This document shows, in pieces, positions 37,347 to 45,249 of a stretch of 64,000 nt of DNA. The stretch spans positions 1 to 64,000 of the forward strand of contig JAUJND010000001.1 in assembly GCA_030446505.1 (NCBI GenBank), read 5' to 3'. A program made the translations under genes and the position numbers. Below the pieces are notes generated by a model. That model searched no databases and was not told the origin of the DNA. It saw only the letters and a program-made list of their open reading frames with translations. Numbering within the stretch: the stretch's first letter is position 1; every line of letters starts with the position of its first letter. The DNA comes from Chroococcidiopsidaceae cyanobacterium YX2bin18 (GTDB lineage: Bacteria > Cyanobacteriota > Cyanobacteriia > Cyanobacteriales > Chroococcidiopsidaceae).

Positions 37347-38253
37347 ATGCAAAAACTAATGCCTTTAAATTGGGGTTTAATTCAACAACGAATCACCCCA
37401 TATCTGTTTTTGCTGCCTGCCCTGGTTATTTTGGGGTTAACTGTCTTTTGGCCTGCCTTACAAGCGTTTTACCTTAGCTTTACCCGCTACGAATATGACC
37501 TTACGCAGTCACCGCAGTGGGTAGGTTTTGCAAACTTCCGTCGTTTGGGGGCTGGATCAGGTTTTTTGGCAGACGCTGTCCAACACTGTAATTTATCTTG
37601 TTGGTGTCGTGCCAATTTTGGTGGTTGCTCCGTTGGCACTAGCAATTTTGGTAAACCAGAAACTACGCAGCATTAATTGGTTTAGGGCAGCCTACTACAC
37701 GCCAGTTGTGATTTCAATGGTGGTTGCTGGAATTGCCTGGAAATGGCTTTATGCAGAAAATGGGTTGCTGAATCAGCTGCTCAAACATTTAGGTATCTCC
37801 GGCGCAGATGGAATTCCTTGGCTGACTAGCCCCAAATGGGCAATTTTCAGTGTTATGGCGGTGACAGTATGGAAAGGATTAGGCTATTACATGGTTATCT
37901 ATCTAGCAGGGCTGCAATCGATTCCTACCGATTTGTATGAAGCAGCAGCAATAGACGGTTCAGACGGTATCCACAAACACTGGGATATTACAGTACCGTT
38001 AATGAAGCCATATCTGGTGCTAGTATCCGTAATTTCTGCTATTTCTGCTACGAAGGTCTTTGAAGAAGTTTACATCATGACTCAGGGAGGACCACGCAAT
38101 AGCTCTAAGACGATTGTGTATTACCTTTATGAGCAAGCCTTCCAAAACTTGGAGATGAGCTACGCCTGCACGATTGGACTAGTGCTATTTTTGGCAATCT
38201 TAGGCTTGTCGCTCTTGAATCTCCAGTTGTCAACAAGGGGGATAAGTAGCTAA
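37347..38253 (+). pseudogene. Sugar ABC transporter permease (MalF type), frameshift in a G5 run
   Basis: A membrane permease of carbohydrate ABC importers. The N-terminal frame starts MQKLMPLNWGLIQQRITPYLFLLPALVILG and runs to FANFRRLG. At a run of five G (37546-37550) the frame changes, and the rest continues VFWQTLSNTVIYLVGVVPIL to 38253. The EAA loop that docks the ATPase is intact (YEAAAIDGSDGIHKHWDITVPLMKP). Removing one G would give about 301 residues. No substrate-binding protein, second permease or ATPase gene is adjacent, so it is an orphan that must partner with subunits encoded elsewhere, if it works at all. Confidence 0.86.
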
Positions 38254-38394: not shown

Positions 38395-38988
38395 TTACTC
38401 ACTATAGCGTTCTTCTGCCCAGGGTTCGCCACGTCGGTGATAGCCGTTGCGCTCCCAGAACCCTTGTTCTTCGTGGTCTAAAAACTCTATCCCATTAATC
38501 CATTTGGCGCTTTTCCAAGCATAAAGGTGGGGAACAACTAGCCGCATCGGACCACCGTGTTCTGCTGGAAGGGGATCACCAAATACGGTGTGAGCAAAGA
38601 AGTTTTCCTCACGGACAAAATCTGCTAAAGGAATATTGGTAGTGTAATCGCCGTAGCAGTGCTCCATGATATGGACAGCTTTGGGATCTACTTCAATTAG
38701 GCGCATAAAGTCTGTTACTTTAATGCCAGTCCACTTGACATCAAGTTTAGACCAGCGCGTCACACAATGAAAATCCGCTGTAAAATCGTGTTGCGGCAGC
38801 GCCATGAAGTCTTCCCAGGTAAAGGTAGCAGGTTTTGCTAGACCCCATACTCGTAATTGCCATTCTTCAGAATTGATTTGGGGTGTTTGACCGTATGTAA
38901 GTACCGGAAACCCCTTAGCTAAGTATTGACCAGGAGGGACGCGAGCATCCTCTTCTGTTCCTGGTTTTTGAAAAAATTTTCCTAACAT
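38395..38988 (-). CDS. Sulfite-oxidase-like molybdopterin-dependent oxidoreductase
   Basis: A protein of 197 residues from ATG 38988 (MLGKFFQKPGT). It has the sulfite oxidase fold: LRVWGLAKPATFTWEDFMALPQ, then the molybdenum-ligating cysteine in DFHCVTRWSKLDVKWTGI, and LPAEHGGPMRLVVPHLYAWKSAKWI. The C-terminal GFWERNGYHRRGEPWAEERY is typical of cyanobacterial and YedY-like members. There is no twin-arginine signal, so it is probably cytoplasmic. The substrate is unknown. A molybdenum cofactor gene (mobA) is at 60802. The gene is intact and stands alone. Confidence 0.9.
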   Translation of the reverse strand: MLGKFFQKPGTEEDARVPPGQYLAKGFPVLTYGQTPQINSEEWQLRVWGLAKPATFTWEDFMALPQHDFTADFHCVTRWSKLDVKWTGIKVTDFMRLIEVDPKAVHIMEHCYGDYTTNIPLADFVREENFFAHTVFGDPLPAEHGGPMRLVVPHLYAWKSAKWINGIEFLDHEEQGFWERNGYHRRGEPWAEERYSE

Positions 38989-39145
38989 ATAGATATAGGT
39001 TTGTGGAGGCACTCCAGCTAGGAAAGACAGATCCTAAATTCACTGGCAGAGAACCTGTAGTCTTAAGCTCTAACGTAATCGACCAAATCCTCACACTATT
39101 TTTAAGCTAGCACTTTATTTATTCAAGTAACTAGCTTGCTTGTGA

Positions 39146-39513: not shown

Positions 39514-41976
39514 TTAATTTGACATTGTGTCAGGAGCAGAAATATCAGTACCCCTAGACGTGTCCAGCAGTGGCTCAGGGAAATTAACGTTGGGTATTGT
39601 TGGCGTAGTGATGTTGCTAGGAACGCTGATCTGAGTAGAGTTATTAATTCTAGTACCCCTAGAAGATGGCGTAACTAAAGAATTTTGCGGCGCACTTGTA
39701 GGAGTCGAGAGTAAAGTCGAACCTGAACTGCTGTTTGTTGAAGTTGGAGTCTGAGAATTCCTGGGACCAGCTGTGGTTTGATTGGGAGTGGAAGAATTAG
39801 AAGCAGGAGAAACTTTTAATTTAGTAGAAGTACTATTTGGAGACTGGCTTGACCTTACATTAGCAGTTTCGGGAACGCTGTTGCTGTCATCAAGCTGTTC
39901 TATTTTGAAGATAGCCGTCTCTGGTTCTGCTGGAGTTGCCAGATTATCAGTTGCAGTTGCTACGTTTTTAAGTCCAAGTAGCGATCGCGCACTCGTAAGA
40001 TATGTACCCCAGCGCTGAATATTAGGACTTTTACTCCATTGACTTCGGCTGACTTCCAAAGACATTACTGGTGCAATCACTCCATAGTTTTCTGCCATAA
40101 CCATGACTGTCACAGCTGTTGCTTGCTTATTCTTTTTAAAGTTTTCTTTCACGACTGTCTGTGTAGCCGCTTCTGCACGACTCAGTAGTGTTTCGTAACT
40201 CTCATTTGGCAGACTTTGAACAGAGAGGTCAATGTGAGTTGTTTCCCTTTGGACTATCTGTGGCTTAATCACCTTATTAGTAACTGCAAATTCTTTTGGA
40301 GGATTAGCGCTTGCAGCTACTGGCGCTTTAACACCCGCTGGCAGAGAAGTTGGGGCGGTGGGAACAGGCTGCTTAGGCGTAGTAGCGTTATCAGTGTCTA
40401 TATAGACAGAAGTATCTTCAAGTTCTTCCGCGACATCATTTGTTTCGCTAGCAGCAGTAGTTGCCACATCTTCAAATGGCACGGTGGCATCTGCTATTAT
40501 AGAGTCTTGCTCAGTTCCAGAAGTTTGATCTTGATTATATGTAGTTGCGGCTGCATCGGTTTCTAGCCCACCAAAGCTATCCTCAGGTTCTTCAGCGACA
40601 GCAGTATCAGTTACTATTTCACTAGCAGTTGTAGTTGCTACATTTCTAAAGCCAAGTAGCGATCGCGCACTCGTGAAGTATGTACCCCAGCGCTGGACAT
40701 TGGGGCTAGCGTTCCATTGACTGCGGCTAACTTCCATTGCCAGTACTGGGGCGATCGCCCCGTAATTGTCCGCCATAACCATGACCGTAACCGATGTCAC
40801 TTGGGTGTTTTTCCAGCTATCTTCAACTACTGTCTGCATTGCCGCTTCTGCGCGACTTACTAATGTTTCATAACTTTCATTGGGCTGACTTTGAACAGAG
40901 AGGTCGATGCGAGCGGTTCCCGCTTGAGCTATCTGGGGCGCGAACAATTCATTAGTCACCCAAGACCCTCCTGCTAATCCCAATAACAGCACTAAGGTTG
41001 CCCTCTGGGTTGTCTGAGTAAACCATTGCTGAGATTGGCTTAAGGCTGCTAGGAGTATTAGCTTCAAACTAGGAGACGATTTTTCAATTAAGCTAGGCTT
41101 GATTGTCGTTTGCAGCGGCAGATGAAAATTAGAGGTACCATTGCTCAAATCTAATTTTGTGCAGGTGGAACCAACTGCTTCGGCAGGCACTACCTGTTTA
41201 TTTTCAAGCTCTTGTTGAGACTTAAGTTGAGCAATTTGCTGGTCGAGTTCTTTTAACCTGTTTTTCAGTCTCTGCCGATCTATTTTTACTTGCTTTAATT
41301 CCTGAAGTAAACTTTCCCGTGATTTCCAACTTGCTGTTGAACTACTAATATTTACACTAAGTTGGTGCAAGATTTCTCTAGATACTGCTTTACCTAATAG
41401 CCAACTGCTGCGGGTTAATAAAGCCGATTGTACTGCTTGCAGCTTACCTTTTCCTGCAATTACCTCAGGATGATTAAAGGGAAGTTTAGTTAGTAGATCT
41501 TCCACCTCATTTCTAGTTTCAGCATAATGCTGTAAATTTTGTCGAAACACTCGATCTGATTGCAAAACAGAAGCATCTGATGTTTGCCCAGGGGGAACGC
41601 CCACAATCGCAATCAGCTGTTTTAAATGTTTACTCGCTTCTTGCTCTTTGGCTAACATTTCAGCTTGCTCTTGATGCAGCTGTTCTGTGTGGGTTGAGAG
41701 GTTTATAACTTCAGGAGAACTCTTAACCAGGTGAGAGTTATACTCGGAAAGCTTCTTTTTTGCACTACTTCTACCTTGGCTCAATCTTTGCGTAATGGGG
41801 ATTGACTTTACACTTTCTGCTGAGTTAATTGTTTTCTCAGGCAGTTAATCTCACAAATAAACGCTTGATAACGAGAATATTTTTGCTCAACGGACTTATA
41901 TTTGCCATCAACCTCGAAAATTTTGCTGTCTTTGAGTAGCCTAAATCTTTGGTCAACCAAAGTATTTATCAGACAT
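39514..41976 (-). pseudogene. Envelope protein with coiled coil, one membrane helix and two QRW-type repeats; frameshifted at the N-terminus
   Basis: The main frame (39514-41784) encodes 756 residues. Residues 20-220 are helical and coiled-coil-rich (RLKNRLKELDQQIAQLKSQQE). A single hydrophobic segment (ATLVLLLGLAGGSWVTNELF, about 262-281) leads to two copies of a domain of about 90 residues. Each runs from ARIDLSVQSQPNESYETLVSRAEA-like to SQW...P..QRWGTYFTSARSLLG. A Ser/Thr/Pro/Asn-rich tail of about 130 residues ends the protein. Further N-terminal sequence lies upstream in other frames (from ATG 41976: LVDQRFRLLKDSKIFEVDGKY), so two small indels are likely; a TTG at 41784 could start a shorter intact product. 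Function is unknown. Confidence 0.7.
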
Positions 41977-42151
41977 ATTTGCTTAACAAACTTTTAAGAT
42001 GAGATTGCCACTTTAAGCCTCCAGTCAGCTTATGTCAATCCCATTTAAATTTGAATGTTTATTTTTATTAACGACTATAGTAGCTCTTATAGCAAATTTT
42101 TACAATCTTTCTCATTTAGAGGAAATTGGCGGTGTAGCGCTTTTTGATCTG

Positions 42152-43122
42152 CTACTTGATTTGGCGGTTTACTTCCTCTGAGATTCCAGCAGGCGGAGTA
42201 CTACTCGGCAAGACATTTTGATTTGGTCTTGTGGTGCTAGGAATAGTGTTATTAAGACTTCCAGACGTATTGGTTCCTGGTTCTATAACTCCAGGAAAGT
42301 AGTGTTAGGAATTAGTGGTGTGACTGAGGAATTGTTATTTGGGACAATGCCAGCATTATTAGGAACGCTGATTGTGCTGCTATTGTTGAGTGGCGCTGTT
42401 GCTGGAGCAATTGCGTCTTGTGTGATTGAGGAGGAAGGTACACTCAGTCTGACACTGCTTGATGGGTTTGTTGGATTTTGAGAAGTATCTGGAGTTTTTA
42501 ATGGTACGGCAGTGGTCGATGGGATAGAACTTGAACCAGTGCTAGAAGTTGGGGTTTGATTAGGCTTAGTAGTTGCGGCAACACCCGGACTGCTAACAGT
42601 ATCTTGGGTTGTATTAGCTGAGGTAGGAGTGCTTGGTTGAGGAGTAATATTTGCTATGTCTTCCAAACCAAGTAGCGATCGCGCAACAGTGAAGTATGTA
42701 AACCAGCGTTGGACATCAGGGTTACTAAACCATTGAGTTCGGCTGACTTCTAAAAACAAAACAGGTGCGATCGCGCTGATTTTGACCCATAATCATCACA
42801 GAAACATCCGTCATCTGAATATCCTGGTCGAAGCTTTGCTGAACAGCGCTCAAGGCTACCGCTTCTGCTCGACTCAGCAGATTTTGGTAAGTTTCATGTG
42901 ACTGGCGATCAAGAGAAACCTCAACACGCTTGGTATCAGCTTGGGCAATTTGTGGTGCGATTACTTCACTACTCCAACCTCCCCTAACCCCAATAACACC
43001 ACCAAAGTCGCCATTGGGCTTTTCTTCGCAACCCATTCCCAAGACTGATTAAGGGTGTAGCTCAAAATGCTAACTTTAGATTGGGCTGCTATTGAGGCTT
43101 GATGAAGAAAATTGCCCTGCAT
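42152..43122 (-). pseudogene. Paralogue of the QRW-domain envelope protein, three frameshifts
   Basis: Starting at ATG 43122 (MQGNFLHQASIAAQSKVSIL), the product has a membrane helix (PMATLVVLLGLG), then changes frame to SSEVIAPQIAQADTKRVEVSLD and a QRW-type domain (TYQNLLSRAEAVALSAVQQSF; DVSVMIMGQNQ). After a second shift comes FLEVSRTQWFSNPDVQRWFTYFTVARSLLGL. A low-complexity Ser/Thr/Pro tail follows, and a third shift near 42290 leads to PGTNTSGSLNNTIPSTTRPN and a stop at 42152. It is clearly related to the neighbour at 39514, sharing the membrane anchor, domain and tail style, and arose by tandem duplication. Confidence 0.72.
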
Positions 43123-44459: not shown

Positions 44460-45249
44460 ATGTATCCAATTTATTCTCTAAATCCTTGGCTAGTTGCTGT
44501 TGGATTAAATACACTTTTACTGCTCTTAGCCTCGATTGCTCCTAAAAAGCTGCTTACCCCTGGCTCGGACTTTTCCACGCCTGGTTGCTAGGTGTTCTGA
44601 TCTGGGGCAGTTTAGGTTGGCAGGGATATTTAGTAGTAATGTTTTATTTTTTGGTTGGTTCTGCCGTGACGCGAATTGGCATGGAGCAAAAGGAAGCAGA
44701 GGGAATTGCTGAAAAACGGTCGGGAGCAAGAGGACCAGAAAATGTTTGGGGTTCAGCACTAACTGGAGCACTATGTGCTTTGGGAACATTAGCGGTTCCC
44801 GCCCTTAATTTAGAGACTAAACCACTACATCTTTACTATTGTTGGGATATGCAGCAAGTTTCAGTACAAAATTGTCTGATACCTGTGCCAGTGAAGTCGG
44901 GAAAGCTTACGGTAAGCGGATATATTTAATTACAACATTACAAGCAGTACCGCGGGGAACAGAAGGGGCGGTGAGTCTAGAAGGAACACTGGCTGGAGTA
45001 ATGGCTTCAGCGGCGATCGCCTTGGTTGGTTGGGGGGTAGGTTTGATTGATTTATTAGGAGTGCTTTTGTGTGTGCTGGCAGCGTTTATTGCTACCAATA
45101 TAGAAAGTGTAATTGGGGCAACGCTGCAAGCAAAAATAGGCTGGCTCACAAATGAAGTTGTGAATATTTTGAATACCTTAATAGGTGCTTTAGCTGCTAT
45201 ATTACTAGCGTTAGCATGGCACTGGTATAGCTTACTGCCTCAAATCTAA
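44460..45249 (+). pseudogene. DUF92 family membrane protein (phytyl-phosphate kinase-like), two frameshifts
   Basis: A multi-pass membrane protein of about 262 residues. It starts at ATG 44460 with AGGAGG at 44444-44449. The first frame reads LVAVGLNTLLLLLASIAPKKLLTP. After a shift near 44560 it continues GLFHAWLLGVLIWGSLGW, FYFLVGSAVTRIGMEQKEAEGIAEKRSGARGPENVWGSA. A second shift near 44840 leads to GYAASFSTKLSDTCASEVGKAYG and ITTLQAVPRGTEGAVSLEGT, the DUF92 signatures. Plant VTE6 in this family phosphorylates phytyl-phosphate for tocopherol synthesis, so a role in phytol salvage is plausible by family, not shown here. Confidence 0.82.

Follow-up and report, generated by a model that had tools for sequence, protein, structure and literature searches.

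Pseudo-orthocaspases are widespread in cyanobacteria. The YN type, as described by Klemencic et al. 2019 (PMC6426788), carries Tyr and Asn in place of the catalytic His and Cys, and the accessible part of that account gives it no identifiable domain C-terminal to p20 and reports no gene neighbour. In the accessible portion of the literature on cyanobacterial orthocaspases, no partner or function was found for the YN type. The domain described here is not a caspase but rather the product of a candidate partner gene, and the neighbour of one of its subfamilies (A) has the same Tyr/Asn replacement of the dyad. A second point of comparison is the PhoX (PF05787) and PhoA (PF00245) operons, where a domain gene of subfamily B lies directly upstream on the same strand, often with Pho-box-like sites; the upstream domain differs from the known operon members in having no Pfam match, and the copies considered first below belong to subfamily A. 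Wzz/GumC-like co-polymerases are homologous to the N-terminal coiled coil of one of the genes studied (E 8.5e-30), but that gene is without their first helix and Wzz part, and the new domain follows the coiled coil. Finally, CamS/sex pheromone precursor lipoproteins (2qx2, 4hn3, 3ib5, 3n2q) account for four of the top five structural matches to the domain, with 77-80 residues aligned at 2.2-2.8 Å, yet with Z of only 4.5-6.2, a Foldseek E of about 0.6, 8-14% identity, and a lipobox-like motif in just 2 of 147 domain rows.

The domain genes of the window

The stretch of DNA referred to as the window comprises 64,000 nucleotides of a draft genome of Chroococcidiopsidaceae cyanobacterium YX2bin18 (73.5% complete, 153 contigs). 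Its domain-bearing features are collected in Table 1. A sequence-only reading of the window had placed a domain of about 90 residues twice in one protein, preceded by a membrane helix, followed by a tail rich in Ser, Thr and Pro and, in the larger protein, accompanied by a coiled coil. All of these elements were located: the two copies lie in tandem in one open frame of gene 1 (E 1.7e-41 by sequence comparison), the N-terminal region is helical, the tail has the described composition (in gene 2 it reaches 50% Ser/Thr/Pro), and the hydrophobic stretch is present, albeit as a weak membrane helix (Kyte-Doolittle mean 1.42) with a signal-peptide-like A-Q-A after it. At full length gene 1 has no ATG start, and the TTG start used is uncertain.

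Table 1. Features of the domain locus, in positions of the window
Feature	Position	Strand	Remarks
Molybdopterin (sulfite-oxidase-like) gene	38395..39012	-	PF00174; conserved downstream neighbour, marks the ancestral locus
Gene 1	39514..41784	-	756-aa ORF: coiled coil, hydrophobic helix, two domain copies, S/T/P-rich tail
C-terminal tail of gene 1	39517..39960	-	47% Ser/Thr/Pro
Domain copy 2	39961..40236	-	76% identity to copy 1
Domain copy 1	40639..40914	-	beta-alpha-beta-beta-alpha (predicted); AlphaFold pLDDT 95
Hydrophobic stretch	40939..40995	-	internal, signal/anchor-like, ahead of first domain; then APQIAQA
Coiled-coil segment of gene 1	41173..41784	-	related to Wzz/GumC-like exopolysaccharide proteins of ~480 aa (lowest E 8.5e-30)
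Gene 2	42283..43122	-	single-domain paralogue with two frame changes; ATG at 43122, end 42283
Domain copy 3	42658..42928	-	over two frames, 42776-42928 and 42658-42780

The orthologue of gene 1 in a sister species of the same genus has 818 aa and three domain copies (L035 5171-7624). Against this species the dN/dS of the window's domain copies is 0.18-0.21 (about 0.18 for copy 2 against the sister's last copy), that of the coiled coil about 0.40, and that of the weakly constrained tail about 0.43; these ratios indicate purifying selection on both domain copies of gene 1 and on its coiled coil. The frame is open in both species, and this together with the dN/dS led to rejection of the coiled coil as a non-coding relic. 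The Wzz/GumC-like relative of this segment gives Wzz and GNVR matches just under the cut-off, gene 1 itself was found to have no first membrane helix or Wzz domain, and stops interrupt the sequence upstream of it in both species. Judged by homology, the domain has been joined in the window's genus to a coiled coil that stems from an exopolysaccharide protein of Wzz/GumC-like type, an origin that offers the sole hint of a link to the sheath.

A third copy had also been claimed within a continuous neighbouring protein. The copy itself is present in gene 2, while the continuous protein is not: relative to the intact orthologue in the sister species (G001; 304 aa, L035 8062-8973), gene 2 has lost 4 bp near 42978, before the domain, and 2 bp near 42777, inside it, and the continuous protein was therefore a mental repair. 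Other genes of the window are likewise divided between two frames, namely those for an ABC sugar permease (37347-38253) and for a DUF92 membrane protein (44585-45249) that the sister species has intact; this hints at sequencing error as the source of the breaks in gene 2, with decay as the alternative.

A previously undescribed domain family

The copies of the window had no family match over the domain in Pfam, NCBIfam or PHROGs, where a match was defined as exceeding the curated cut-off (Pfam, NCBIfam) or as E <= 0.001 (PHROGs), and 47 homologues gave only scattered weak matches to Pfam. The earlier view that the family is unnamed is thereby upheld, and nothing on the domain was found in the literature on orthocaspase neighbourhoods and PhoX. 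Chance is excluded by its occurrence in 41 of 60 related genomes. A search of cyanobacterial genomes, which had been proposed from the sequence, revealed the domain as real and common, being present in 96 of 175 Cyanobacteriia genomes sampled evenly from the class and absent from all genomes of other classes in a phylum-wide sample. Counts are taken from the class sample because a genome scan with a tighter alignment (A2) favours subfamily A, as do its loci. This is a real, previously undescribed domain family, and it merits a family name in the databases. Plasmid and phage collections and a defence-system library contained no match to it.

AlphaFold2, run on an alignment of 47 rows, predicts a beta-alpha-beta-beta-alpha fold with a pLDDT of 95, and the domain carries conserved Arg, Trp and Tyr residues. 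Matches of this fold were weak, the best being CamS lipoproteins (Z 6.2, rmsd 2.2 over 80 residues), so that for the modelled fold a relation to CamS is a weak lead only. Viral and PDB fold collections gave nothing below E 0.001 for the model, and the domain profile found nothing significant among PDB sequences.

A hydrophobic stretch ahead of the domain is common to gene 1 and other homologues; it precedes the domain in 140 of the 144 homologues examined, with AxA near its end in 91. Such signal-peptide-like segments make it very probable that the domain proteins are exported, in agreement with the surface or envelope location first suggested. The more specific suggestion, a surface or cell-wall anchoring module whose domain binds a wall or sheath polymer while the Ser/Thr/Pro tail spans the wall, fared less well. 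Export, the conserved Arg, Trp and Tyr, the tails and a coiled coil derived from an exopolysaccharide-related protein would all fit such a module, but the domain matched no wall-binding, S-layer or anchor family, the majority of homologues are small single-domain exported proteins, many of which (142-185 aa) have no long tail, and the partner genes code for phosphatases and a pseudo-caspase, not for wall proteins. Co-occurrence with divisome or sheath genes had been put forward as a check, and the neighbours proved to be pseudo-orthocaspases or secreted phosphatases, not divisome genes. Anchoring is improbable.

In a tree of the domain, based on about 90 columns and with moderate supports of 0.76-0.94, a subfamily A of 65 rows separates from subfamily B, a group of 45 rows. 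Subfamily A includes all of the caspase-linked rows, together with each copy that the window's family has at this locus.

Subfamily A and the YN pseudo-orthocaspase

Among 73 loci from named genomes, picked with subfamily A patterns, the domain gene adjoins and diverges from a caspase-like gene in nearly all. The product of this neighbour, at homologous loci rather than in the window, is a Peptidase_C14 homologue (PF00656, E 1.8e-17; the general caspase model was its sole match in the defence-system library), and in 73 aligned proteins from such loci the dyad His is replaced by Tyr in 71 and the Cys by Asn in all 73. By these residues, the divergent neighbour is identified as the YN type of pseudo-orthocaspase described by Klemencic et al. 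2019 (PMC6426788). The proteins found here have a single membrane helix and, in their C-terminal region, predicted TPR-like helical repeats, unlike the YN type in the accessible part of that account.

In the class sample, where a YN-like pseudo-caspase was scored by a p20 match of at least 180 bits (the dyad, read in part of this set, being mostly but not always YN), the domain occurs in 96 genomes, the pseudo-caspase in 75 and both in 60, leaving 36 genomes with the domain without the pseudo-caspase and 15 with the reverse. For their co-occurrence Fisher's test, which ignores shared ancestry, gives p = 7e-9. Where both are present, they lie within 4 kb of each other in 55 of 60 genomes, divergently in all 55 and across ten families, which provides a direct experimental handle on the YN pseudo-caspase.

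A divergent pair may persist for regulatory reasons, and a wider synteny block is conserved in Nostocales as well, so that shared promoters or locus inertia might explain the pairing of genes whose products do not work together. The pairing, however, outlasts changes to the rest of the block in many families, being kept in Symploca, Moorena, Leptolyngbyaceae and Pseudanabaenaceae despite loss of the other synteny, and in one genome (G076) a caspase gene that has lost its caspase domain and retains the helix-plus-repeats part still adjoins the domain gene. Mere co-residence of the two genes is improbable. Upstream of 76 caspase-linked domain genes no Pho-box-like site was found (0/76); NtcA-like sites, seen before 28 of the 76 against 8.6 in shuffles, were set aside, the genomes being closely related.

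The pseudo-caspase begins directly with its caspase domain and shows no evident export signal. The flank C-terminal to its helix is the more positive one in 51 of 77 proteins and the less positive in 10, and these charges lean towards a cytoplasmic C-terminus. With that orientation the repeats would lie in the cytoplasm, on the other side of the membrane from the exported partner, and it is the main doubt on the partnership set out below.

Helical repeats like those at the pseudo-orthocaspase C-terminus are found in a 695-aa protein encoded elsewhere in the window's genome (L178 2727-4811, G000:C82); this type of repeat protein is present in most cyanobacterial genomes searched and is without a Pfam family. 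Stand-alone genes for the repeat part, lacking a caspase domain and with no gene for the exported domain nearby, were seen at L213 and L214 (G034, G036).

Subfamily B and phosphatase loci

Of 55 loci read, chosen mostly for absence of a caspase neighbour, 27 have the domain gene directly upstream, on the same strand, of a gene for PhoX (22) or PhoA (5), the phosphatase identity having been verified for a single example of PhoX (PF05787) and of PhoA (PF00245). Half of the PhoX-linked domain genes (11 of 22) have tandem Pho-box-like sites ahead of them, versus none in shuffled controls. No description of this PhoX-linked pattern of subfamily B was found in the literature, and subfamily B would represent a hitherto unnoticed component of phosphatase operons, which are important for phosphorus scavenging. 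Several kinds of PhoX gene are preceded by a gene of subfamily B, frequently with Pho-box-like sites (L192, L194, L195, L205 and similar loci). Smaller groups of domain genes lie beside RidA/amine oxidase genes or PilQ; in one family (L164, L216, L217) the domain gene comes after the gene for the PilQ secretin in a type IV pilus operon.

An upstream, co-directional position next to exported PhoX or PhoA, the small single-domain build and the diversity of neighbours, including the RidA/amine-oxidase and PilQ loci, could be expected of a dedicated exported chaperone, that is, a secretion, folding or maturation helper for the adjacent exported protein, with the pseudo-caspase as one more client. 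Such a role is rather unlikely, as the pseudo-caspase lacks an evident export signal, starts with the caspase domain and is encoded divergently instead of in one operon with its supposed helper.

A proposed role for the domain

The genetic linkage of the domain with its neighbours is an observation. The reading preferred here, to which a probability of roughly 0.5 is given, takes the domain as a small exported module, seen only in photosynthetic cyanobacteria, that works outside the cytoplasm as a partner or accessory of the adjacent gene's product. Subfamily A and the membrane-anchored YN pseudo-orthocaspase would form one membrane complex, in which the domain is read or held outside and the dead caspase domain may serve as a scaffold inside, and subfamily B would assist or tether the secreted phosphatase PhoX or PhoA. 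Physical contact between the products, the direction of any signal and the role of the dead caspase are what we infer for such an arrangement. A more elaborate form of the proposal is doubtful, if conceivable: an envelope signalling or scaffolding pair, with an exported ligand or receptor domain coupled via a one-helix protein to a dead caspase inside, a sister subfamily that serves phosphatases under phosphate stress and, in the window's genus, a pair rewired after loss of the caspase, its domain increased in copy number and joined to a coiled coil.

Probable caspase loss in the window's family and domain expansion in its genus

Nostocales carry the genes of the locus as asd-dapA-RNaseJ-MoNif-pseudo-caspase-domain-SUOX-ALDH-response regulator/kinase. 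In the window's family this arrangement is retained, partly or completely, with the pseudo-caspase absent; a search of 19 genomes of the family found no p20 match, the sole match being to the repeat part of another protein. Because the pair is present in other orders of the class, the simplest reading is that the pseudo-caspase was lost in this family, and the proteins of the window are best read as a derived, pseudo-caspase-free branch in which the domain was kept at the ancestral locus. According to the proposed history, the domain stayed at the locus after this loss and, in the window's genus, was then duplicated and joined to a coiled coil of Wzz/GumC-like origin.

The module had also been thought to be expanding, and copy number bears this out for the genus: the sister species has three plus one copies at the locus where the window has two plus one broken. 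A fourth copy in the window's genome lies on another contig (C123; 32% identity). A fifth, degenerate copy with six stops (G000:C6:37608-37832, locus L179) lies a short way upstream of a PhoX gene in which there is also a stop.
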